A stretch of DNA of 64,000 bases from NCBI GenBank assembly GCA_017452505.1, contig JAFTMI010000003.1, positions 1-64,000 of the forward strand, read 5' to 3'. The notes below the pieces were generated by a model, which saw only the letters and a list, made by a program, of their open reading frames with translations, ran no database searches and was not told the origin of the DNA. Position 1 is the first letter of the stretch. The number at the start of each line of letters is the position of its first letter. The stretch is from Oscillospiraceae bacterium. Lineage in GTDB: Bacteria > Bacillota > Clostridia > Oscillospirales > Oscillospiraceae. The translations under genes and the position numbers were made by a program. Shown piece by piece: positions 8,778-29,806 of the stretch.

Positions 8778-9440
8778 ATTACATCACCCCAGGATATACG
8801 ATAGCATTTTAACTGTCCAATAATTCGGGTATGATTGGGTATCTTTTCCAAAATTTATCTGTATGCTTTTCTTTTTATTCTACAGCAACAAAGAAGGCAT
8901 TGCAACAAGTTCCTTATATTGAGCACTGACAACTAATTTGATCCTATAAGCAAAAAGTTCCGAAACCATAACGGTTTCGGAACTCTTATAATTGTATGAG
9001 TACAACTTTATGACTCCAGAGTTTGAATTACTGTAAGTGCAAGAATCCTGCATTCTATCTTTTTAATCATTTTGTGTCTACTTTTGGATAATTCTCAGAT
9101 ATAAGTCTATATGGCACTACTTTGTCCCCCCATCTGATGTTCCCGTATGGATTAAAACATAGGTCAACCCTATATAAGCGTACCCATTAATGCTCGCAAA
9201 GTGCTTTTTCTAGTTTTATAACATCTAACATTCAAAGGAAAAACAACATATTCTTACATAATCTAGTTATCCACTTTAAGACTGGTTTTTTGAGCTTATC
9301 CAATTCGCACTACACCCTTTAAAAAATATCACCAATGCACATCGGTCAAAAAAGATGTCACTATTCGCCTATATCCAAACATAATATAAGTATAACAAAC
9401 TGTAAGTAGGCTTATTTGCTACGAAAGGTGTTGAAATACT
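8778..9440. other. AT-rich intergenic region, 663 bases
   Basis: No convincing gene is seen. It contains the hairpin at 8956-8984, and the rest is AT-rich, unlike the helicase side. A 24-codon frame beginning near 9334 has no ribosome site and is not called. The radical SAM operon promoter must lie here, possibly in the TATAAT-like run near 9380-9400, but no clear -35 box supports one choice. Confidence 0.5.
8956..8984. terminator. Hairpin flanking the radical SAM cluster, left copy
   Basis: A 12-bp stem AGTTCCGAAACC/GGTTTCGGAACT with loop ATAAC. A near-identical hairpin with the same AGTTCCGAAA arm occurs at 14256-14291, so the pair brackets the six-gene AT-rich cluster. Confidence 0.65.
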
Positions 9441-10475
9441 GTGGTTGAATATTTACCCTGGTCAAAAACAATATATCAAGAAAGTTTAAAACAGTATAAA
9501 AAAGGTTTGTTTTCTAGCTTGGATATTGAACTTGGTGGCGAGTGCAATTTTCATTGTATTTATTGTGATTCGCCTGAATACAAAAAAAAGTGTCAAATTC
9601 CTCTTGAAACGATTGAGGATTATTTATCTACTGGCACAATACAGTGGGTGTATATTTGTGGGTTGGGAGAGCCTACCTTTCATACTAATTACAGCACACT
9701 AATATGGCTTCTAAAAATCTGTCAGCGATATGGTATTCAATGCAGTATCTTCTCGAATCTTTCGAATTTGACCCCAGAACTAATTAGGTTTATCCAAGAC
9801 GGCATTTTACACATTCAGTTTAAGTGCGATTCACATGATGAACATTTAGTAAAGATGCTGTACCAAACTCAAAATCCCGGTGAGCAATTGCATAACATCA
9901 AGTTGATAAAAAAGCTCGTTACTTCTGATGGAAAAACAACAAACCTCGCTGCTTCTATTGTGCCAACAAAGTTAAATTTAAATAGCATTTTAGGGGTTGT
10001 TGAAGAGTGTTTGAACGCAAATATATACCCTCTTCTTGGTGAGCTTGAATGTTCAGGAATGGGGCAAGTTAATTACGAAAATCTGTGTTTACATCCTGAG
10101 GAGGCAATGGAATTAAAACAATCCGTGGAGCATCTCTGTGGAGAATCATATAAAATTCCTGTGTGTCCATCAGTAATTTCCGGGATACACATTAATCACT
10201 CAGGATACATTACGGTGGATAAGAAAACTGGATTATCTTGTCATTGGTTCTGGTTAGACAAACCGCAGATTTTCCGTCTTATGCATTGTAGTAATTATGA
10301 AAATATTAATGCTATTGCCTATGATATATGGAATTATCGTAGCAGTTGTATGGACAACGTTTTAAATTTCCTTAATAATGGCAAAAAAATTGGGATGGCC
10401 TTTGGTGGCTGTGGTGGTGATGTAACGGAACTGTTTAAACAATATGTAGAAAATCATAGGGGAGGAATTGAATGA
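9441..10475 (+). CDS. Radical SAM protein with SPASM-like C-terminal cysteines
   Basis: A 344-residue radical SAM enzyme, cleaving S-adenosylmethionine with a 4Fe-4S cluster. The binding motif is C35-x3-C39-x2-C42 in GGECNFHCIYCDSP, followed by GLGEPTFH. The C-terminal third has further cysteines (CPSVISG, LSCHWFW, MHCSN, SSCMD, GGCGGD) around a GYIT strand, like the auxiliary-cluster SPASM/Twitch region of peptide- and cofactor-modifying members. The GTG start has GAAAGG upstream. Its last four bases overlap the start of the desulfurase gene. No precursor peptide gene was found nearby, so the substrate may be a small molecule or protein. Reaction unknown. Confidence 0.88.
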   Translation: MVEYLPWSKTIYQESLKQYKKGLFSSLDIELGGECNFHCIYCDSPEYKKKCQIPLETIEDYLSTGTIQWVYICGLGEPTFHTNYSTLIWLLKICQRYGIQCSIFSNLSNLTPELIRFIQDGILHIQFKCDSHDEHLVKMLYQTQNPGEQLHNIKLIKKLVTSDGKTTNLAASIVPTKLNLNSILGVVEECLNANIYPLLGELECSGMGQVNYENLCLHPEEAMELKQSVEHLCGESYKIPVCPSVISGIHINHSGYITVDKKTGLSCHWFWLDKPQIFRLMHCSNYENINAIAYDIWNYRSSCMDNVLNFLNNGKKIGMAFGGCGGDVTELFKQYVENHRGGIE

Positions 10476-11614
10476 TCTATCTGGATAATAATGCAACAAC
10501 AAGGTTATATCAGTCAGTCTATCACAAACATTGCGAAATACTCCATCGTTTCTTTGGTAATCCCAGTAGCCTCTACCCTGCCGGTGTAGAGGTAAAGGCT
10601 ATGATTGAGCGGTCAAGAGTCCAAGTTGCTTCTTTTATTAATGCTGATCTATCTGCAGGAGATACAATTTTGTTTACAAGTTGTGCCACTGAAAGCAATA
10701 ACTCAGCATTACATTCTGCCATACATCCTAATAGCCATGGCAAACACATCATTATCTCCGCAGTTGAACATCCCTCAATTTCTGTAACAGCAAGTAATTT
10801 CGAAAAAGCAGGAGCTAAAGTGACCAAAATTGGTGTGGACTCTGATGGCAACTTGCGATTGGAGGAATTGTGTTCTGCTATTACCGACGAAACAGTATTA
10901 GTGTCCATTATGTATGTAAATAGTGAAACAGGCGTAATACATGATATTGCAAATGTTGTTCGTACCGTCAAAAATATCCGTGAGAATATTATTGTACATA
11001 CCGATGCTGTACAAGCAGCTGGAAAAATTCCTATTGATGTCCAAGCTCTCGGGGTAGATATGCTAACTCTATCTGGGCACAAATTCCATGCACCTAAAGG
11101 TGTTGGTGTGTTGTATATCAGAAGAGGGGTGCCTTTTGTTCCATTCGTGCTGGGCGGACACCAGGAGCATAGTTTACGCGCAGGGACAGAGAATACCGCA
11201 TCAATTGTAGCATTAGGTGAGGCAGCTGCAATTACAAAAGCAGAAATGGCATCAGGTTCTGTTGAAACGATAAGCAAATTAAAAGAATTTATGGAAAACA
11301 AACTTAAAATTATTTTCCCAGAATCTATAATTTTTGGTGAAAAGGCTCCTCGTGTATGTAACACTACGAACATTGGCTTCCGAAATATTTTAGGCCACAA
11401 ACTAGTACTGCAATTGGCAAAGAAAGGGATTTATGTATCTAGCGGAACAGCATGCAATTCGTCAAGTGCTAAGCCTTCAACTGTCTTAACCGCAATGAAT
11501 GTCCCCAATGAATACATTAGTTCAATTAGAATCAGTTTGGATAGTTTCAATACCGAACAGAATATTATAGATCTGCTTATTGCACTTGAAGAGATTTTAA
11601 GGGGGAAAAAATAA
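10472..11614 (+). CDS. Cysteine desulfurase, NifS/IscS-like class V aminotransferase
   Basis: A 380-residue PLP enzyme that should take sulfur from cysteine as a persulfide and release alanine. It begins MIYLDNNATTR, has the cofactor-stacking His100 in VEHPS, the PLP lysine Lys204 in SGHKFHAPKG and the catalytic Cys328 in SSGTACNSSS, so the active site is complete. The start overlaps the radical SAM stop as ATGA, which implies translational coupling. In this operon it could feed Fe-S clusters of the neighbours or donate sulfur to a product; no IscU or SufU scaffold is next to it. Confidence 0.92.
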   Translation: MIYLDNNATTRLYQSVYHKHCEILHRFFGNPSSLYPAGVEVKAMIERSRVQVASFINADLSAGDTILFTSCATESNNSALHSAIHPNSHGKHIIISAVEHPSISVTASNFEKAGAKVTKIGVDSDGNLRLEELCSAITDETVLVSIMYVNSETGVIHDIANVVRTVKNIRENIIVHTDAVQAAGKIPIDVQALGVDMLTLSGHKFHAPKGVGVLYIRRGVPFVPFVLGGHQEHSLRAGTENTASIVALGEAAAITKAEMASGSVETISKLKEFMENKLKIIFPESIIFGEKAPRVCNTTNIGFRNILGHKLVLQLAKKGIYVSSGTACNSSSAKPSTVLTAMNVPNEYISSIRISLDSFNTEQNIIDLLIALEEILRGKK

Positions 11615-11615
11615 A

Positions 11616-12254
11616 ATGGCAGTAAAAATCAATTTTAATATTTGCGACAACAGTTTGGAGTGTAGTGGCATCGCTGTATGTAACACGGGAGCGCTTTATT
11701 GGGATGAAACTGCTATTGATTACTGGGGAAATAAGGGCCTGTTATCTGTTGATAACCATAAGTGTATTTCCTGCGGGAAATGTATAGGTGAGGATGGGTG
11801 TCCTGTAGGTGCGATTGTTTTTGCAACTACAACTGAAGAGTTGAATGCCAAAACTGAGACACTTAATATTGACGAAGAACAAATACGGAAACTTTTTGTG
11901 GAACGTTATGGTGCCGAACCTATCGACAAAGCGATTTGCATATCTGAATGCGAACTGGAGGCCGCGATAGCAGAAAATAGCGGCGTTGTTATCGTAGAGC
12001 ACTATGCGGATTGGTCTATTCAGTGCCTGCTTAACTCTATTCCCATCGGATCTATTGTCGAAATGGTTGGGAGCCTGTGTGATGTAAAGGACATGACCTT
12101 TTACAAAGTCGACATCTCCGAGAGTACAGGAGATAAGGGAAACCTCCCAACACTTCAAATTTACAGCAACGGCAAGCTCATAGCAACGGTAAATGGATAT
12201 TATGAACAGCAAGCAGAGAAAGAGCTTATGGCACTGCTTGAAAAGCAACTGTAA
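11616..12254 (+). CDS. Ferredoxin domain fused to a thioredoxin-fold domain
   Basis: A 212-residue protein with two parts. Residues 1-75 form a ferredoxin-like domain with C10, C16 and C22 in the first half and C50-x2-C53-x2-C56-x5-C62-Pro in the second, enough for one and possibly two 4Fe-4S clusters. Residues about 105-212 look like a thioredoxin fold: VVIVEHYADWSIQC takes the place of the WCxxC site, so the first redox Cys is Ser, and LPTLQIYSNGK supplies the cis-Pro strand. It may carry electrons to the radical SAM enzyme or handle persulfide through the single Cys. It lies one base after the desulfurase. The fusion assignment is by motif only. Confidence 0.8.
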   Translation: MAVKINFNICDNSLECSGIAVCNTGALYWDETAIDYWGNKGLLSVDNHKCISCGKCIGEDGCPVGAIVFATTTEELNAKTETLNIDEEQIRKLFVERYGAEPIDKAICISECELEAAIAENSGVVIVEHYADWSIQCLLNSIPIGSIVEMVGSLCDVKDMTFYKVDISESTGDKGNLPTLQIYSNGKLIATVNGYYEQQAEKELMALLEKQL

Positions 12255-12289
12255 TAATGATACTGGAATAATGAAGTGGGTAGATTAAT

Positions 12290-12925
12290 ATGACAATCAA
12301 AGATATCACCAAACAAGTAACCGCTGCGTATGATAAAATTGCCAATGAATACCAGAACGCTTATGCCGAAACAGATGAATTTGACTTAAAATATGTGGAA
12401 CTTTTTTCTCAACTATTTCAGGGCAAACGAGTTGTTGATTTGGGATGCGGAATCGGGACTAATGCTGCATATTTGACGAGAAAGGGATTTGATGTAATTG
12501 GAATTGACAATTCAAGGAAAATGTTGGATGTTGCAAAAGATCTCTATCCGCAAAACACCTTTATGCAAATGAACATTTTAGACTTACCTTCCAGTTTGGG
12601 GAAATTTGATGGTGTTATCTTATCGTATGTTGTCAATCATTTCAATAAAGAAATGCTCAACAAATTAAAAACAGTAGTTGATAATTTGCTTTTTGATGAT
12701 GGTGTGGTTTATATCGCTGCTCATTTGGGGAATGAGGAAAGGATTGTTTCAGATCCACTAGATGCAAATATACAGCTTTACTATAATTTCCTTTCGGCGT
12801 CCACATTAAACAAGCTTTTTCAAAATTATGATCGTATGTTTATTGAAACAAGAACTTCCTTTGGAGAAGAGGAATTTCTTTGCGACAAAGTATTTATCGC
12901 GTATCGAAAGAAGGCGGTTCTATGA
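12290..12925 (+). CDS. Class I SAM-dependent methyltransferase
   Basis: A 211-residue methyltransferase. Motif I is VVDLGCGIGT (about residues 47-56), the acidic ribose-binding GIDNS follows at about 72, and MNILDLP and VILSYVVNHF are motifs II and III. It resembles small-molecule and ubiquinone/menaquinone-type methyltransferases more than DNA enzymes. It lies 35 bases after the ferredoxin gene and overlaps the arginine decarboxylase start by four bases, so it is part of the same operon. Substrate unknown; agmatine or an arginine-derived compound is a guess from context. Confidence 0.88.
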   Translation: MTIKDITKQVTAAYDKIANEYQNAYAETDEFDLKYVELFSQLFQGKRVVDLGCGIGTNAAYLTRKGFDVIGIDNSRKMLDVAKDLYPQNTFMQMNILDLPSSLGKFDGVILSYVVNHFNKEMLNKLKTVVDNLLFDDGVVYIAAHLGNEERIVSDPLDANIQLYYNFLSASTLNKLFQNYDRMFIETRTSFGEEEFLCDKVFIAYRKKAVL

Positions 12926-13389
12926 CACTTCTACCCAAAAACTTTATCCTCCGGACAAGTATCGGAAGAAATACACATCAATTAGGAGCCTTTGATGATG
13001 CATTGCTTAAAGCAGGAATAGGAAACTATAACTTGATAAAAGTAAGCAGCATTTTACCTCCCAAATGCTCGCCAAAGAACACGATAACATTAGCAAAAGG
13101 GGCCCTCCTACCATCAGCGTATGCATTGATATTCTCATCGGATATAGGCACAACCATTTCAGCTGCAGTAGCTGTAGGAATACCTGTTGATACATCTTCA
13201 AATGGCGTAATTATGGAGCATTCTGCACTCGGAACAAAACGCGAAGCTGAAGAAATAGTGCGGACATATGTAAAGCAAGCAATGTTATCTCGGAATTTGG
13301 CAATTAAAGAAATTGTTTCTGTTGCAACTGAGGTAACTGTCATTTCCAACGAAACATATTGTGCTTTTGCAACAGTTTCTATGTGGTGA
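12922..13389 (+). CDS. Pyruvoyl-dependent arginine decarboxylase (PvlArgDC) family
   Basis: A 155-residue proenzyme that should cleave itself at a Ser-Ser bond to make a pyruvoyl group and then decarboxylate arginine to agmatine. The self-processing site is NLIKVSSILPP, with Ser42-Ser43 expected at the cut, and FDDALLKAGIGN just before it matches the family. The ATG at 12922 fits the family N-terminus (PKNFILRTSIG) and overlaps the methyltransferase stop as ATGA. No agmatinase or agmatine deiminase is adjacent, and linkage to radical SAM and sulfur genes is unusual, so another substrate is possible. Confidence 0.88.
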   Translation: MTLLPKNFILRTSIGRNTHQLGAFDDALLKAGIGNYNLIKVSSILPPKCSPKNTITLAKGALLPSAYALIFSSDIGTTISAAVAVGIPVDTSSNGVIMEHSALGTKREAEEIVRTYVKQAMLSRNLAIKEIVSVATEVTVISNETYCAFATVSMW

Positions 13390-13429: not shown

Positions 13430-14191
13430 TTGTCTTTAGAGAAAATATTTAAATCCAGATTGTTTAGTATTATTTGCACAATCACTCTTACCGCTACATT
13501 TATTTTCTTCATTTTACCATATATATCTGAAGAAACAAGCAAATGGGGAACAGCTGAAATTGCCATAGTTATTTCAATTGTTGCGATTCTTGCTCAAATT
13601 GCCCCCCCGTTCATACAGCGGTTTTGGGATAGTAAGAACAAAAAACACCATAATATTATAAAGGATATTTTAGAAAAGCAAACCGAGACATATTACGCAA
13701 TTAAGCTAGATGTAGATGTCCTCGCCGATGGTAATGTTCAGTTTGAAGCAACTATCTGTAATGAGGGTTTAGTGACAATTCTTCCTCAATATACTAAACT
13801 ATACATCGACCAAGGAATAGAAGGATCAGGGGACATCTGCGGTTATGATTTCCCGTTTATTCTTGAACACAAAGGGCACAATGAGGAAAATGATTGCATT
13901 CTGTGCAATCGCTGTAAGGCTGAACAAGGACGCAATTCTTTCCCGATAGATGTTCTGCCAGAGAAATTTAGAAACGAGCTAAGGGATCGCAAATTGGAGT
14001 ATGGTTGCTTCTCGTTGGACCATCTCTCAGAAAAATCGATTAAGTATATCCGCGCGCACGAGCAGTTTCAGGAAAACTTAATTTTAAAGTTTAAAAAATC
14101 TGGTGTCTTTCGCGCTACACTTGTTGTAATTACCAAAAATGCTGATTGTCAGTGTGCAACAGAGCAATTCTATGTAAGCATTAAGCCCTAA
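13430..14191 (+). CDS. Unknown protein with two N-terminal membrane helices
   Basis: A 253-residue protein not recognised as a known family. Two membrane helices (about 11-30 and 42-62) precede a soluble domain with beta-strand character and cysteines in CILCNRC (about 157-163) and CQC near residue 243, which could bind metal. A TTG start is used because GAGG lies upstream and no ATG fits. It follows the decarboxylase by 40 bases, shares the low-GC composition of the operon, and lies inside the same pair of hairpins, so it may be a membrane partner. No function is claimed. Confidence 0.6.
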   Translation: MSLEKIFKSRLFSIICTITLTATFIFFILPYISEETSKWGTAEIAIVISIVAILAQIAPPFIQRFWDSKNKKHHNIIKDILEKQTETYYAIKLDVDVLADGNVQFEATICNEGLVTILPQYTKLYIDQGIEGSGDICGYDFPFILEHKGHNEENDCILCNRCKAEQGRNSFPIDVLPEKFRNELRDRKLEYGCFSLDHLSEKSIKYIRAHEQFQENLILKFKKSGVFRATLVVITKNADCQCATEQFYVSIKP

Positions 14192-14255: not shown

Positions 14256-14291
14256 AAAAGTTCCGAAAACCATTCTGTTTTCGGAACTTTT
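14256..14291 (+). terminator. Terminator flanking the radical SAM cluster, right copy
   Basis: A 15-bp stem (14256-14270 with 14277-14291) with loop CATTCT and a T run, about 65 bases after the preceding gene. It shares its AGTTCCGAAA arm with the hairpin at 8956. Confidence 0.8.
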
Positions 14292-14484: not shown

Positions 14485-16017
14485 TCACTTTTGCACCAAT
14501 GTGTCTATGTCTTCGCCATCATTATATTTACCAATCCAATATTTTTTTGCAGCGCACACCATCGTTGCAAATCCGGTCATAAGTAGGAATGGATAAAAAA
14601 GCAGCGAAAACACACCATCAACAAACTGAGATGTGCTATATCCACCCGCCTCTATTTGTGCTATAAGCTCAGAGCTGAACATCGCTGTGCATGTATCGAC
14701 AAAGAAAGTTTCCACTAAAACATCCTTTGTTAATATAATAAGACCAATGACACCTGCCAGCAGTGCATTGGCTAGTGTTGCTACTCCAGCATTGCAGAAA
14801 CTACTATATGCCCCCCATATAAGAGCAAGGACAATACTGATAATAATACAAACTAAATATTGGCCCGTCGCTCCTGCAAGAATGTCTTTGAATGCAATAG
14901 CAAAAGACAATGCCATTACTATTCCAATAACAATTATTAAGCACATTCCCAGTTCCAGGAAACCGCCCAATGTTGTCATTGCTCTTTGCGAGTCTTTCAA
15001 GAACGTATATATAAGCATGGCCACACTAAGCAAAACCAGCATATAATATCCGAACTTCCATGGAATCATTCTGGTAATCACCAGAATGACATCAATCGAA
15101 AGGATAATCAAGCAGATAATATCGAATCTCCCAATTGCCTTTGTTTTTCCCCAAATGTTATGTACCACCCAACTCTGCGCTCTCCATTCAATTTCGAATA
15201 ACCCTTTAAAAAATCCTCTCTTGTGCTGCTGTCCAGAATTGCTCTCTTTGTCTTTAGAAGCTATGTTAGTTTCTCGGCTATCTTTATCTGTTTTTGGTAT
15301 TGGTTTTTCTTGTTGCAAAGATGCTCCCTTCACACGAAAAAGAAGTTTCCCTATGGATATAAGCAGATACCTTAATGCCAGTCCTACTACTCCCAAAATT
15401 GGCTTTATAATGTGATAATATAGTTTTTTTGTAGTCAATAATTTGTAACGATTATAGAAAAAGATTTCACTCTTAATCATAAAGATATTGTATCTAGACT
15501 TATACGACTCTATCCTTGATATTGGGTTGGATCCTAAGTCGTTTACAAAAAAAGACAAGGCTTCATTCGATTCAAGATCACTTAAACTAGTCAATCCCAC
15601 CTCATGTCGAATAGCTTTTAAGATGTCAGCAACAATATACAACAACACTTTGGGGTTATTGTATTTACTCTTCTGAACGATGGGATTTATTGAGTACTCT
15701 CTAAAGAAAATGTATTTCTTATATACATGTTTTGAGCCGTAGAGCAAGAGAGAAACTCCCGTATCAAAGAATACTTGCTTTCCTTTTTCATCTGGCTTAA
15801 TACCCCCAGACAAGCTCTTTTGAAGCAATTCAATAAATTTCTTATATTCAGCGCGTCGACCCTCATGCTTTTTAAACCTTGTTTCTGAACGTTGTCCCGC
15901 CATAAAAATGATCAATGTTACAGCAACTGAGATTAAGGTAATCTGGTCAGTACTCAGTCCCAAAAACAAGTTTTTAACCTTAATAAGCACCTCGACAATC
16001 TCGTTCCATAAATTCAT
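14485..16017 (-). CDS. Unknown polytopic membrane protein
   Basis: A 510-residue protein not recognised as a known family. One membrane helix lies near residues 25-42, then a soluble stretch, a hydrophobic segment near 205-225 and a charged Lys/Ser-rich linker (about 235-270). At least six closely packed helices fill residues 300-490. The ATG follows AGGTG. It is AT-rich like the neighbouring operon but faces the other way and converges on the hairpin region at 14.3 kb. The layout of cytosolic N-half plus membrane C-half is seen in some sensing or defence proteins, but nothing diagnostic is visible. Confidence 0.65.
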   Translation of the reverse strand: MNLWNEIVEVLIKVKNLFLGLSTDQITLISVAVTLIIFMAGQRSETRFKKHEGRRAEYKKFIELLQKSLSGGIKPDEKGKQVFFDTGVSLLLYGSKHVYKKYIFFREYSINPIVQKSKYNNPKVLLYIVADILKAIRHEVGLTSLSDLESNEALSFFVNDLGSNPISRIESYKSRYNIFMIKSEIFFYNRYKLLTTKKLYYHIIKPILGVVGLALRYLLISIGKLLFRVKGASLQQEKPIPKTDKDSRETNIASKDKESNSGQQHKRGFFKGLFEIEWRAQSWVVHNIWGKTKAIGRFDIICLIILSIDVILVITRMIPWKFGYYMLVLLSVAMLIYTFLKDSQRAMTTLGGFLELGMCLIIVIGIVMALSFAIAFKDILAGATGQYLVCIIISIVLALIWGAYSSFCNAGVATLANALLAGVIGLIILTKDVLVETFFVDTCTAMFSSELIAQIEAGGYSTSQFVDGVFSLLFYPFLLMTGFATMVCAAKKYWIGKYNDGEDIDTLVQK

Positions 16018-16214: not shown

Positions 16215-16246
16215 AACAGCACCATCCAAGGCAGGATGGTGCTGTT
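16215..16246. repeat. Hairpin repeat downstream of the RelA/SpoT gene
   Basis: A 13-bp stem AACAGCACCATCC/GGATGGTGCTGTT. The hairpin and the following TCTGTAGCTTC recur at 17562-17606. Each copy sits 55-40 bases beyond the stop of a minus-strand gene, so both may be transcript 3' ends, though the T run is on the other strand. The rest of 16018-16302 shows nothing else. Confidence 0.6.
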
Positions 16247-16302
16247 GTTCTATCTGTAGCTTCTATGCCTGGTCAAATTATCAACCTGCCTTACGCTACA
16301 GT

Positions 16303-17415
16303 CTATCTTTTGTTGATCGCCGTTCCGATCCTATATAATTTTTTCACTGTTTCTTCGAGCTTCTCTGACTCCCCGATGTCATTCCTAACTAGATATTGTT
16401 CTATTTGTTTATGGGTACACCGTTCTGTCAAGAGGATTGCATATTCCAGATAAAAAACCGCAATTGCCGGGCTAACCTCTTCCTCCTTGTTAGAGATATA
16501 ATCCTTTAGCAGTTCTGTAGCAACATAACAGGCCGTATCATAATAATCATCAATAATGCTGTAAAGCTGTCTTACCGTTTTGACTCCAAGGGAACCCAAC
16601 TCGCGTATAGTGGCTTCGATATACCCCCGGTCCCTTTGTTCCTTCAATTTGGCATTCAAAATACTTGCAATATACTTACCTAATTGCTGTACCTTGGGAT
16701 TCGTATTGATGATGGTCTCAACAAGAACGGCATCGATCTCTTTATCCATAAACTCATCTTGCTGGATTTTTTGCGTTGCCGCCTCCTTGTAATTGGCCAA
16801 AGATCTTCTAATATCATTAAATTCTCTATCAGCTATCTCAAGCAAACCCGCAAGTCTGGAGAAGCTGCGCCGCATTTCTTTAGGAACAGCAATCTCACTT
16901 TTATAGCCAATATCGTGTTCAATCTCCGCCCAGGCGTGCTGTAATACTGAACGAATCTGGATTTCACATTTCATTCCCTTATATGCCTGGCATTCTCGTA
17001 ATACGGTTCGTTCCTCGCTCATGCTTACTACATAATGAACGCTGCAATAACCAAATCTGTCCGGTTCCAAGGATTCTCGCTTATCGATAGAATTCTCCTT
17101 ATCTACTACAAATTCACTTTCGATAATGTCCGCAACCTTATCCACATCCTCAGCATAATAGGTAATAATGCGAACACCAGCAATATCCGTAATTTCTGCC
17201 AAGTCAGCATATTTATTCTGCTTTCTTTCGATTTTTTCTGTTAGACTTTCCCGAGTCTTTAATCTCGATGTAATAGCATTACACACAACTTGGCTTGTTT
17301 GCAGAATACTGGTAATCTGATGTTCTATCTCTGCCAAAAATGATTGATATAACCTATATTTATCATCGTACTGTTCAATAAGTGTAGCTTTCTTTTCTGC
17401 TAGATTTAAAGCCAT
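16303..17415 (-). CDS. Stand-alone RelA/SpoT-domain nucleotide pyrophosphokinase
   Basis: A 370-residue protein with a synthetase domain but no HD hydrolase, TGS or ACT domain. An N-terminal helical part (about 1-70) is followed by AGVRIITYYAEDV, GYCSVHYVV and EIQIRSVLQHAWAEIEHDIGYK, the core motifs of (p)ppGpp synthetases, and then by about 190 mostly helical residues. It is longer than the small alarmone synthetases (about 210-260). The ATG at 17415 was preferred over an upstream GTG because GAGGG fits it. Lying in an accessory region without a hydrolase, it could be an alarmone enzyme or a toxin-like (toxSAS/CapRel-type) protein; no antitoxin gene is evident. Confidence 0.85.
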   Translation of the reverse strand: MALNLAEKKATLIEQYDDKYRLYQSFLAEIEHQITSILQTSQVVCNAITSRLKTRESLTEKIERKQNKYADLAEITDIAGVRIITYYAEDVDKVADIIESEFVVDKENSIDKRESLEPDRFGYCSVHYVVSMSEERTVLRECQAYKGMKCEIQIRSVLQHAWAEIEHDIGYKSEIAVPKEMRRSFSRLAGLLEIADREFNDIRRSLANYKEAATQKIQQDEFMDKEIDAVLVETIINTNPKVQQLGKYIASILNAKLKEQRDRGYIEATIRELGSLGVKTVRQLYSIIDDYYDTACYVATELLKDYISNKEEEVSPAIAVFYLEYAILLTERCTHKQIEQYLVRNDIGESEKLEETVKKLYRIGTAINKR

Positions 17416-17561
17416 CCCGTACACCCTCTTATTTCTTCAATATGGAAAATTATATCATAATTTGACATATTATGCAATGGTTACAACGATAGCGCAAATA
17501 ACATTTATTATCATCGAAATCCAAAGAGTATGCAACAAATAAGTAATAAAAGTTGATGTAT

Positions 17562-17606
17562 AACAGCACCATCCAAGACTGGATGGTGCTGTTGTTTTTC
17601 TGTAGC
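17562..17606. repeat. Hairpin repeat between the SOD and RelA/SpoT genes
   Basis: Second copy of the AACAGCACCATCC hairpin (17562-17574 with 17581-17593), followed by the same TCTGTAGCTTC. It lies 38 bases past the SOD stop on the minus strand. Confidence 0.6.
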
Positions 17607-17630: not shown

Positions 17631-18077
17631 TTACACTTTACAGATTACGCCGCAGGCAATCTTCTTTCCGGCATTACCGGCAGGCTGGGAGTAGAAGTCA
17701 TCGGGATCACTATGTATGACCACAGACCGTCCGATAATATCCATCACAGAAAACCGGTCCGTTCTTACGGACAAATACGCATTCCCCTGACACTCCAATA
17801 ATGGTGGCAGGTCGCCTGCGTGTTTTGGATGTGCCTGGTCAGAGGGATTGTAGTGGCTACCTGTACCGGAAAAGTCAGTTCCGGTACAGGTATCTCCTTC
17901 ATGAATATGAAATCCAAAAAATCCTGCCTTACTTTTTCTTGGCAGGCCAGAAATCTTCGCCACAATTAACACACATCCATTCTCTTGGTAAAACTGAACA
18001 CATCCGGATAACTGCGGTGCTTCCGTTCCGCCACGGATTTGCGCTGCTGCATACGGTCTTTTCCCGCAATATTGCAT
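17631..18077 (-). CDS. Copper/zinc superoxide dismutase family protein
   Basis: A 148-residue Cu/Zn SOD that would turn superoxide into oxygen and hydrogen peroxide. The metal-site signatures are visible: FGFHIHEG (Cu histidines), GSHYNP and HPKHAGDLPPL (bridging and Zn His/Asp) and VVIHSDPDD (Cu His). The disulfide Cys pair is probably in GDTC and IACGVI. There is no signal peptide, which is unusual because bacterial Cu/Zn SODs are mostly exported. AGGTGAT precedes the ATG. It follows the ABC exporter genes by 65 bases on the same strand and may share their transcript. Confidence 0.9.
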   Translation of the reverse strand: MQYCGKRPYAAAQIRGGTEAPQLSGCVQFYQENGCVLIVAKISGLPRKSKAGFFGFHIHEGDTCTGTDFSGTGSHYNPSDQAHPKHAGDLPPLLECQGNAYLSVRTDRFSVMDIIGRSVVIHSDPDDFYSQPAGNAGKKIACGVICKV

Positions 18078-27695: not shown

Positions 27696-28328
27696 ATGAG
27701 TATGGAAGAAGAAAAGCAGACCTTTGAAAATATGCCGGTTGAAGAAGTGCACTACACCACTTTTGGTGAGCGACTGCGCGAAATACGGGATGAAAAGGGT
27801 TGGTCACAAAGTGACCTTGCAAAAAAGCTGGGGACAACCAAGCAAATGATCAGCTGTTATGAATTAAACCAGCGATCCCCCAGGATTGAGTTGGTACGCA
27901 AGTATGCCAAGGCGCTGGAAAAACCGGTGGATTATCTGCTGGGTGACACCGAGGCAGAGGCAATTACAAAGACTTTTTGGACGCGAAAGAAAAAGAAGAA
28001 GCCTTTTTATAAGATCTTTATGGATGTAACCGACGAACGTGGTTTGAATATTCCCGAAACTGTACGGGTAACCGGTTTGACGGATCGGCAGGTGCGAACG
28101 ATCATTACTCGTGAGATGAAAGTTGCCCCTCTGGATCTGGCATTGCAGTTGTCCGAGACTTTGAATGTTCCGCTGGCTGTATGGTTGGACGAGGAAGAAT
28201 ATACCCCACCCGAAGTATCGGCAGAGGCCTACGAGGTCGCTCGCGCTTATGACAAAGCAGATCTCCGGGATCGGAATATGGCCAGATTCGCGCTGAAGCT
28301 GGAACTGTTGGAGGAGGTAAAAAAGTGA
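27696..28328 (+). CDS. XRE-family regulator of the recombinase
   Basis: A 210-residue protein with a Cro/CI helix-turn-helix at about residues 23-80 (WSQSDLAKKLGTTKQMISCYE). A Lys-rich hinge (RKKKKKP) leads to a second helix-turn-helix-like segment (about 115-165). AAAAGGAG precedes the ATG. Its stop overlaps the GTG start of the recombinase, so it probably controls, and is coupled to, recombinase expression. Confidence 0.87.
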   Translation: MSMEEEKQTFENMPVEEVHYTTFGERLREIRDEKGWSQSDLAKKLGTTKQMISCYELNQRSPRIELVRKYAKALEKPVDYLLGDTEAEAITKTFWTRKKKKKPFYKIFMDVTDERGLNIPETVRVTGLTDRQVRTIITREMKVAPLDLALQLSETLNVPLAVWLDEEEYTPPEVSAEAYEVARAYDKADLRDRNMARFALKLELLEEVKK

Positions 28329-29806
28329 ACGCTGTTGTTTATGCCCGTTTTTCCAGTCATAGACAGGGTGAACAGTCCATTGAGGGTCAGGTTGCGGAAG
28401 CGGAACGCTTTGCCGCCGCTCACGGATTGACTATCGTTAAAGTCTATGCAGATCGCGCGCAAACCGGGCGAAACGACAACAGAGAACAGTTTCAGCTTAT
28501 GCTGTCTGACGCAGCTAAGCATGCGTTTGATGCGCTGATTGTCTGGAAGACGGACCGAATTGGACGAAACAAAGAGGAGATCGCCCTCAACAAATATCAC
28601 CTGAAGAAAAACGGTGTTAAAATCTACTATGTGGCCGAGGCCATCCCGGACACTCCCGAAGGAATCATTTTGGAAGCTGTCATCGAAGGTATGGCAGCCT
28701 ATTACTCCGAACAGCTTTCCCAAAATGTCCGCAGAGGCTTGCGTATGTGTGCCCAAAAGGCACAGAGTACCGGCGGCACCCATCTTCTGGGCTATACAGT
28801 TGACGAGAACAAAAAGTATGTGATTGACCCGCAGCACGCACCTACCGTCAGACTGATCTTTGATATGTACGCACAGGGCAAAACGATTATCGAAATCGTA
28901 AGAGAGTTGAACGCCCGCGGTCTTCGCACGAAAAAGGGAAATCTCTTTACCAAGAACAGCCTGCACCGGATGATGAAGAACAAGAAGTACATCGGCACCT
29001 ACGAATACAACGGTGAAGTCTGCATTGAAAATGCAGTTCCGCCCATTGTAGATGTAGAAACATTCAACAAAGTGCAGGAACTGCTGAAATACAATCAAGC
29101 TGCAGCTGCCCACAAAAAAGCAAAGGTAGATTATCTGTTGACGGAAAAACTGTTTTGTGGCAAGTGCGGAACTATGATGGTCGGTGTTTGTGGCACAAGC
29201 AAAACCAAAGCGCGATATCACTACTATATGTGTACCCTGCAGAAGAAAAAGCAGTGTACAAAGAAGGCTGTTCGACAAGCCTGGATTGAAAATTTGGTGC
29301 TTGAATATGTAATCAAGCTGGTACAAGATGAAGCACTGTTGGAGTATATTGCAGAAAACACCTATCAGTATTACCTGGCACAGAACACGGATACCAGCTA
29401 TACCAAGTCCTTGCAGAAAGCGTTGGAAGAAACAGAAAAGGCTATTTCCAATTTACTCCGCGCCATTGAGGCCGGCATTTTTAATGAAAGCACCAAGGAC
29501 CGTATGAACGAACTGGAAGCACAAAAGACTGACCTAAAGGCCGCCCTTGCTGCGGCAAAGCTGAAGGAAGATATGGGTCTTAAAAAAGAGCATATTGTGT
29601 TCTTCCTGAAGCAGTTTGCAGATATGGATTATAGCGATATAGCGTGCCAGAAGCGGCTGATTAAGACTTTTATAAACTCTGTGTTTGTCTATGACGATAA
29701 AGTGGTATTGACCTTCAACTATTCAGGTGACCGTCGCACAATGACTTTGAAGGAAATTGACGGCGGATTACAGCAAGGAATTCGTATTCCGCTCTATTTC
29801 TTTTGA
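28325..29806 (+). CDS. Large serine recombinase (site-specific integrase)
   Basis: A 493-residue recombinase that integrates and excises DNA elements through a serine nucleophile. The N-terminal resolvase domain has YARFSS (catalytic Ser10, Arg8) and SIEGQ, followed by WKTDRIGRNKEE. A recombinase domain spans about 160-260, a zinc ribbon follows (FCGKCGTMM ... MCTLQKKKQC), and a coiled coil covers about 355-420. The GTG start overlaps the regulator's stop. It lies 130 bases from the right-hand direct repeat, the expected place for an integrase at an element end. Confidence 0.95.
   Translation: MNAVVYARFSSHRQGEQSIEGQVAEAERFAAAHGLTIVKVYADRAQTGRNDNREQFQLMLSDAAKHAFDALIVWKTDRIGRNKEEIALNKYHLKKNGVKIYYVAEAIPDTPEGIILEAVIEGMAAYYSEQLSQNVRRGLRMCAQKAQSTGGTHLLGYTVDENKKYVIDPQHAPTVRLIFDMYAQGKTIIEIVRELNARGLRTKKGNLFTKNSLHRMMKNKKYIGTYEYNGEVCIENAVPPIVDVETFNKVQELLKYNQAAAAHKKAKVDYLLTEKLFCGKCGTMMVGVCGTSKTKARYHYYMCTLQKKKQCTKKAVRQAWIENLVLEYVIKLVQDEALLEYIAENTYQYYLAQNTDTSYTKSLQKALEETEKAISNLLRAIEAGIFNESTKDRMNELEAQKTDLKAALAAAKLKEDMGLKKEHIVFFLKQFADMDYSDIACQKRLIKTFINSVFVYDDKVVLTFNYSGDRRTMTLKEIDGGLQQGIRIPLYFF

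Follow-up and report, generated by a model that had tools for sequence, protein, structure and literature searches.

A 64,000-nucleotide stretch of the Oscillospiraceae contig JAFTMI010000003.1 (the window) carries an operon built around a radical S-adenosylmethionine (SAM) enzyme (rSAM) and a cysteine desulfurase. This operon is one copy of a conserved cassette that is rare and scattered across distantly related bacteria. The cassette shows a gene fusion at one locus, has a variable partner-gene slot and lies in mobile-element contexts at four loci. We favor, at a little under an even chance, the reading that this is a modular, defence-like unit that moves horizontally and in which a sulfur-inserting rSAM pathway controls a swappable effector; defence, sulfur insertion, the use of agmatine and signalling to the effector are the parts of this reading that we infer.

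The original prediction, drawn from the letters of the window, described five intact, tightly linked genes of recognizable families with ATGA overlaps at two of four junctions. All five open reading frames (ORFs) are indeed present on the + strand at 9441–13389, intact and in the order described, with overlaps of 4 bp between the rSAM and desulfurase genes and between the last two genes, and gaps of 1 and 35 bp at the second and third junctions. Pfam and NCBIfam uphold the five family assignments. The unit and its borders are as follows.

8957..8983, no strand: hairpin GTTCCGAAA..TTTCGGAAC, upstream border, possibly a terminator (2 matches in the window)
9441..10475, + strand: rSAM (Radical_SAM, 1.9e-9), with a Cys-containing C-terminal part and the motifs GLSCHWFWL and FGGCGG
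10472..11614, + strand: NifS/IscS-like cysteine desulfurase (Aminotran_5, 2.9e-78; NifS, 5.7e-121)
11616..12254, + strand: ferredoxin-thioredoxin fusion (Fd-Trx; Thioredoxin, 1.4e-5; Fer4 models below cut-off), with S-I-Q-C replacing C-x-x-C
12290..12925, + strand: SAM-dependent methyltransferase (MTase; Methyltransf_25, 8.7e-16)
12922..13389, + strand: pyruvoyl-dependent arginine decarboxylase (PvlArgDC, 1.6e-35; TIGR00286 above cut-off)
13430..14191, + strand: protein with two transmembrane (TM) segments by hydropathy (the second weak), presumed effector, with four invariant Cys in its soluble part
14260..14287, no strand: second copy of the border hairpin, same pattern

The catalytic residues are intact, as had been claimed: CxxxCxxC in the rSAM, the Cys loop of the desulfurase, and the Ser-Ser and Glu of PvlArgDC by comparison with the Methanocaldococcus jannaschii enzyme. 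The predicted extent was too short; the unit probably runs on into a sixth gene at 13430–14191, an overlooked partner gene. The border hairpin occurs twice in the window (0 matches in 100 shuffles) and at only three places in the 2.0-Mb genome, the third close behind a tRNA-Ala at the end of a contig. The two window copies bracket the genes from rSAM to the TM protein, which favors including the TM gene in the unit, although the hairpins may simply be terminators.

Relatives of the cassette are difficult to find with single proteins. Searching 394 genomes of the order with the window rSAM returned no orthologue (21 genomes with a match at E ≤ 1e-3 including its own, the best other at 25% identity), and the short flanks of these matches contain neither a desulfurase nor other cassette genes. 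Single-protein searches of viral contigs, plasmids, phages and genome contigs likewise gave no rSAM orthologue; the plasmid search returned one partial 24% match, a Thermovirga protein beside a tungsten oxidoreductase. The relatives were found using a query alignment with non-motif positions randomized, so that short conserved motifs drive the search. This approach recovered one locus from IMG/VR (L091) and, among 84,980 species genomes, 151 stretches that fit one of two strict patterns, including five confirmed loci, a lower bound: L095 (Lachnospiraceae), L096 (Clostridia), L097 (Bacteroidia), L098 (Tenericutes) and L099 (Tannerella). The last consists of an rSAM C-terminus at a contig edge and is left out of all context counts. 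The rSAM orthologues are 52% (L095), 49% (L096), 46% (L097) and 43% (L091 and L098) identical to that of the window. A six-sequence rSAM profile matches two of 378 genomes of the phylum at 1e-12, the window’s own genome and G695, whose rSAM (1e-15) is a different protein in which only the first half matches. Scans with the big protein described below, the TM protein and the other rSAMs revealed no further locus. Some viral matches (L092–L094) show 26% identity over 110 amino acids (aa).

Comparison of the loci reveals two layouts. In layout I, the rSAM, desulfurase and Fd-Trx genes are followed by a gene for a big protein and then by MTase and/or PvlArgDC (L095, L096 and L097); the window is a variant that lacks the big protein and ends with the TM protein. 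Gene order and strand in these three loci are the same as in the window. The neighborhood comparison, set beforehand as the refutation test for the gene set, thus found it recurring with its gene order unchanged, both in Clostridia and in one Bacteroidia record. The rSAM, desulfurase and Fd-Trx are present in all four clusters, and MTase and PvlArgDC in three of four each. L095 encodes every layout I gene and, in addition, a protein of 198 aa in which two segments are hydrophobic; the MTase is absent from L096 (no tblastn hit) and PvlArgDC from L097. Layout II (L091 and L098) consists of a small protein, a TM protein and the rSAM, without desulfurase, ferredoxin, MTase or PvlArgDC; the contigs end 376 and 531 bp past the rSAM, so more distant genes are possible.

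Several neighbors are peculiar to single layouts or loci. The small proteins that open L091 (3559–4074) and L098 (6016–6483) share 61% identity and lack a significant Pfam match. In L096, the rSAM is preceded, at a distance of 4 bp, by a phosphoribosyltransferase-like protein (9373–9996; weak match), whose putative phosphoribosyl pyrophosphate loop seemingly lacks the usual acidic pair. In L097, an AlbA_2/Schlafen-type gene lies 9 bp 3′ of the MTase.

The core enzymes are compatible with sulfur chemistry. Ten Cys are invariant across the six rSAMs, three in CxxxCxxC and seven elsewhere. Three of the latter (C242, C267 and C324) fall in the C-terminal third, an arrangement that would allow for an auxiliary cluster. 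Among NCBIfam models, TIGR04317 fits the rSAM best (six of six members, best 4.6e-13). Desulfurase orthologues in L095–L097 are 41–58% identical to that of the window, with an ACNS Cys loop in all four. The window desulfurase passes the Pfam Aminotran_5 cut-off and scores 403.9 bits against the NifS equivalog model TIGR03402, below its cut-off of 530.75 bits. In L097 the rSAM and desulfurase form one fused ORF of 716 aa with no internal stop, and this fusion makes direct hand-over of sulfur from desulfurase to rSAM likely. Lipoyl synthase and biotin synthase are models for rSAM sulfur insertion with cluster repair, and by analogy with them the desulfurase partner suggests this type of reaction.

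The third core protein was predicted to be a ferredoxin-thioredoxin hybrid. The fusion is borne out (homologues in L095–L097 are 35–48% identical); the thioredoxin half is unusual in that it lacks C-x-x-C in all four cassettes and keeps a single Cys, in S-I-Q-C or, in L097, S-I-N-C. One retained Cys is compatible with a persulfide carrier. Matches to Fd-Trx occur in 47 of 398 genomes of the phylum, in ordinary loci, and besides the window’s own protein only that of G563 aligns over nearly its full length. Another member of the phylum encodes an Fd-Trx with WCAPC convergent with a NifS-like gene (L043, 5962–8048), which hints at a wider partnership between desulfurases and such fusions.

The two remaining enzymes vary more among cassettes. 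MTase homologues in L095 and L097 are 49% and, over the alignment, 25% identical, and PvlArgDC homologues in L095 and L096 are 55% and 45% identical. The window PvlArgDC scores 118.5 bits with TIGR00286 (cut-off 106.95) and can be aligned with the M. jannaschii enzyme for most of its length. The Ser-Ser cleavage site and the Glu are kept in the window, L095 and L096. These three cassettes therefore likely use agmatine, or some other decarboxylated derivative of arginine, as an ingredient. In each of these genomes the cassette copy of PvlArgDC is the only one found (that of the window is 2.0 Mb and 82.5% complete); the L098 genome has none, and that of L099 encodes a single copy, which is of a different type. 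The enzyme is found in 140 of 398 genomes of the phylum and is absent from each of the 14 other listed genomes that belong to the window’s class or are closer to it. This absence, together with base composition, suggests that the window copy was imported. Elsewhere in the phylum PvlArgDC lies in ordinary loci, with other cassette genes within ∼1.5 kb in none of the 30 examined (own excluded). In a phylogenetic tree, a single supported clade unites 31 of the 33 other copies and contains no cassette copy, and the window and L095 enzymes pair at 99/95; the three cassette copies do not form one group (2 changes), in a tree where two rows are very long and L096 is of odd composition. A further PvlArgDC, 39% identical to that of the window, is on an unannotated, possibly misassigned plasmid record of 21.8 kb (NZ_CP061967.1; L049, 11790–12230) that bears the name Klebsiella pneumoniae.

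The partner-gene slot has different occupants. In L095, L096 and L097, a protein of 902–1186 aa is encoded after the ferredoxin gene. These big proteins share an N-terminal part (26% identity over 425 positions between L095 and L097), and none of the three matches a PADLOC family at E ≤ 1. The C-terminal 187–225 aa of the L096 and L097 proteins together match a Toll/interleukin-1 receptor (TIR) profile, for which 16 of the 21 TIR_2 sites in related genomes were aligned, with an hhalign probability of 95.4 and a score of 52.8. As controls, 200 column shuffles score at most 22.0 and nine other queries (four other big-protein parts and five other proteins) at most 15.7. The Glu aligned with that of TIR enzymes is kept in both proteins. 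The other type of occupant is the TM protein. That of the window is 26–32% identical to those of L098 and L091, which are encoded directly upstream of the rSAM, and C156, C162, C240 and C242 are invariant in all three. Big and TM proteins have no similarity to each other.

Base composition and gene context point to mobility. The region at ∼9–18 kb of the window has a G+C content of 0.34–0.41 per kb (0.379 for the cassette), versus 0.50–0.56 beyond 30 kb and 0.43–0.57 elsewhere. In all six loci the cassette is AT-richer than its surroundings, though only slightly in L096 (G+C 0.35 versus 0.40). Two serine recombinases adjoin L091; TraC/TraG-like, CD1107-like and topoisomerase III genes adjoin L095; an integrase and a Mob relaxase adjoin L097; and a TrwB/TraG coupling protein adjoins L098. 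An empty-site comparison with ten UvrD regions of the same genus revealed no shared flanks. Two PADLOC candidate families occur beside L097 (PDC-M50A, 3e-47, and PDC-S01, 6e-31), and the window island contains another (PDC-S33, 9e-22).

The window island contains further genes. A second hairpin pair, 94% alike (16215–16249 and 17562–17596), brackets a RelA/SpoT-domain gene (16303–17424; the PDC-S33 candidate), as though every cargo unit in the island had a border pair of its own. Between this gene and the cassette, a 510-aa membrane protein (14485–16017, − strand) has no match at E ≤ 0.1 in Pfam, NCBIfam or PADLOC. A Cu/Zn superoxide dismutase gene (17631–18077) adjoins the island, and a large serine recombinase (28325–29806) is probably part of a separate mobile stretch.

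In the reading that we favor, the desulfurase would feed sulfur to the core, the ferredoxin half would supply electrons and the single-Cys thioredoxin half might carry a persulfide. The rSAM would then insert sulfur from its auxiliary Fe-S cluster to give a sulfur-modified product, to which most versions would add agmatine (via PvlArgDC) and a methyl group (via the MTase). This product, or its loss during phage takeover, would switch the neighboring effector, a large protein with a TIR-like end or a membrane protein, which would stop the cell. A bolder version, to which we give distinctly less weight and which we consider unlikely as it stands, is an undescribed class of immune system, in which an rSAM supplied with sulfur by a dedicated desulfurase produces thio-agmatine (or a thio-nucleotide) as a signal or guard molecule, and this molecule controls exchangeable effectors of the TIR or membrane type.

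Several observations weigh against a sulfur pathway that controls a defence effector. The proposed TIR-like end is a profile-level assignment: queried singly, the L097 piece reaches a probability of 94.5 and the L096 piece only 33.3, Pfam TIR models at E ≤ 10 match neither, and a PDB profile search returned nothing relevant. The domain, if present, is therefore divergent. Moreover, the C-terminus of the L095 big protein has no TIR match, and the window has neither a TIR domain nor a big protein. L096 lies among housekeeping genes, with no mobility-type gene for its six flanking proteins and no PADLOC match for the three tested. Among ten flanking proteins scanned overall, eight lack a PADLOC match and one has a weak recombinase-type match, and the PDC families are themselves defence candidates only. 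Finally, the sulfur genes are not universal, because L091 and L098 have the rSAM and TM protein without them.

This last arrangement, in which a small protein but no other enzyme accompanies the pair, suits an alternative in which the rSAM is a maturase that modifies the neighboring effector (e.g., at the four Cys conserved in all three TM proteins), the desulfurase and ferredoxin serve its Fe-S clusters, and the MTase and PvlArgDC are separate cargo. Models of metalloenzyme and peptide maturases match the rSAM, all far below cut-off (TIGR04317, 4.6e-13; HxsC, 3e-8), and the portion of PMC7159879 consulted proposes that a radical SAM protein in another conflict system modifies a peptide effector. 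We nonetheless regard a maturase as improbable: the dissimilar big and TM proteins offer no common substrate, and separate cargo does not explain why PvlArgDC and the MTase each lie inside three of four clusters. That same retention, and five enzymes of small-molecule type, would suit an ordinary specialized-metabolite or cofactor pathway carried as cargo, with the TIR-ended and TM proteins as regulators or resistance parts. The original prediction proposed such a product, an arginine- or agmatine-derived, sulfur-containing, methylated metabolite. A sulfur-containing small molecule may be made; ‘agmatine-derived and methylated’ does not hold generally, because one of the four clusters lacks PvlArgDC and another lacks the MTase. 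Pfam identifies no carrier protein, ligase, or nonribosomal peptide or polyketide synthase domain in six window cassette proteins and ten from relatives. TIR domains and exchanged partner genes are typical of conflict systems, and the partner gene points toward a conflict or defence system rather than plain synthesis of a metabolite or cofactor, leaving the pathway a poor prospect.

Equally poor, in our estimate, is thio-modification of tRNA or DNA, akin to phosphorothioation, with the effector acting once the mark is lost. Thiolation of tRNA is known for rSAM enzymes, the phosphoribosyltransferase-like gene of L096 and the AlbA_2/Schlafen-type gene of L097 would fit a nucleic acid target, and the window desulfurase matches DndA and SspA models (2e-115 and 3e-115). 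However, IscS, SufS and NifS models match it too, so the DndA match is likely generic to such proteins, and the PADLOC matches of eight window and ten relative proteins include no DndB–E or SspB–E model. Least probable of all is a toxin-antitoxin-like stability module, in which the pathway silences the effector and loss of the mobile element kills the cell. It would account for the contexts of L091, L095, L097 and L098 but not for L096 among housekeeping genes, and we know of no precedent for a multi-enzyme antitoxin.

If the defence reading is correct, sulfur and radical chemistry, possibly with decarboxylated arginine, would join the known bacterial immune signals, and the rSAM fused to its own sulfur donor would be a new enzyme to characterize. 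Because the cassette is small and mobile and its partner gene can be exchanged, direct tests of function are feasible.

The individual cassette proteins all fall into known superfamilies. For the combination and its partner slot, searches of open-licence PMC papers (subscription papers and most preprints are outside this scope) revealed no counterpart, in line with the earlier statement that no described pathway with this set was known. Prokaryotic viperins (pVip) are an apparent likeness: each of the six scanned cassette rSAMs has a pVip match (best 8e-11), and the three PDB sequences that they match are all viperins (best 5e-4). Membership is rejected by the NCBIfam viperin model (32.2 bits, cut-off 180), and the likeness is generic, since this model matches 309 of 338 genomes of the phylum at 1e-10, none above cut-off. 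To our knowledge, viperins lack such a C-terminal Cys part and a desulfurase partner. The tungsten-cofactor maturase family TIGR04317 is likewise distinct; the cassette rSAM reaches 44 of the 380 bits needed, and neither the aldehyde oxidoreductase nor the MoaD of the Thermovirga locus is seen beside it. The Dnd and Ssp phosphorothioation systems share a dedicated NifS-like desulfurase in a mobile operon and a conflict theme, whereas the cassette has an rSAM, a ferredoxin-thioredoxin and PvlArgDC. Thoeris and other synthase-effector defence systems resemble the cassette in logic only, with an enzymatic module beside a TIR- or membrane-type effector. PADLOC ThsA and ThsB models match none of the three big proteins and are absent from the window matches; in the cassette, the TIR-like part ends a ∼1000-aa protein without a PADLOC match, and the enzymatic module is a sulfur and radical SAM set.

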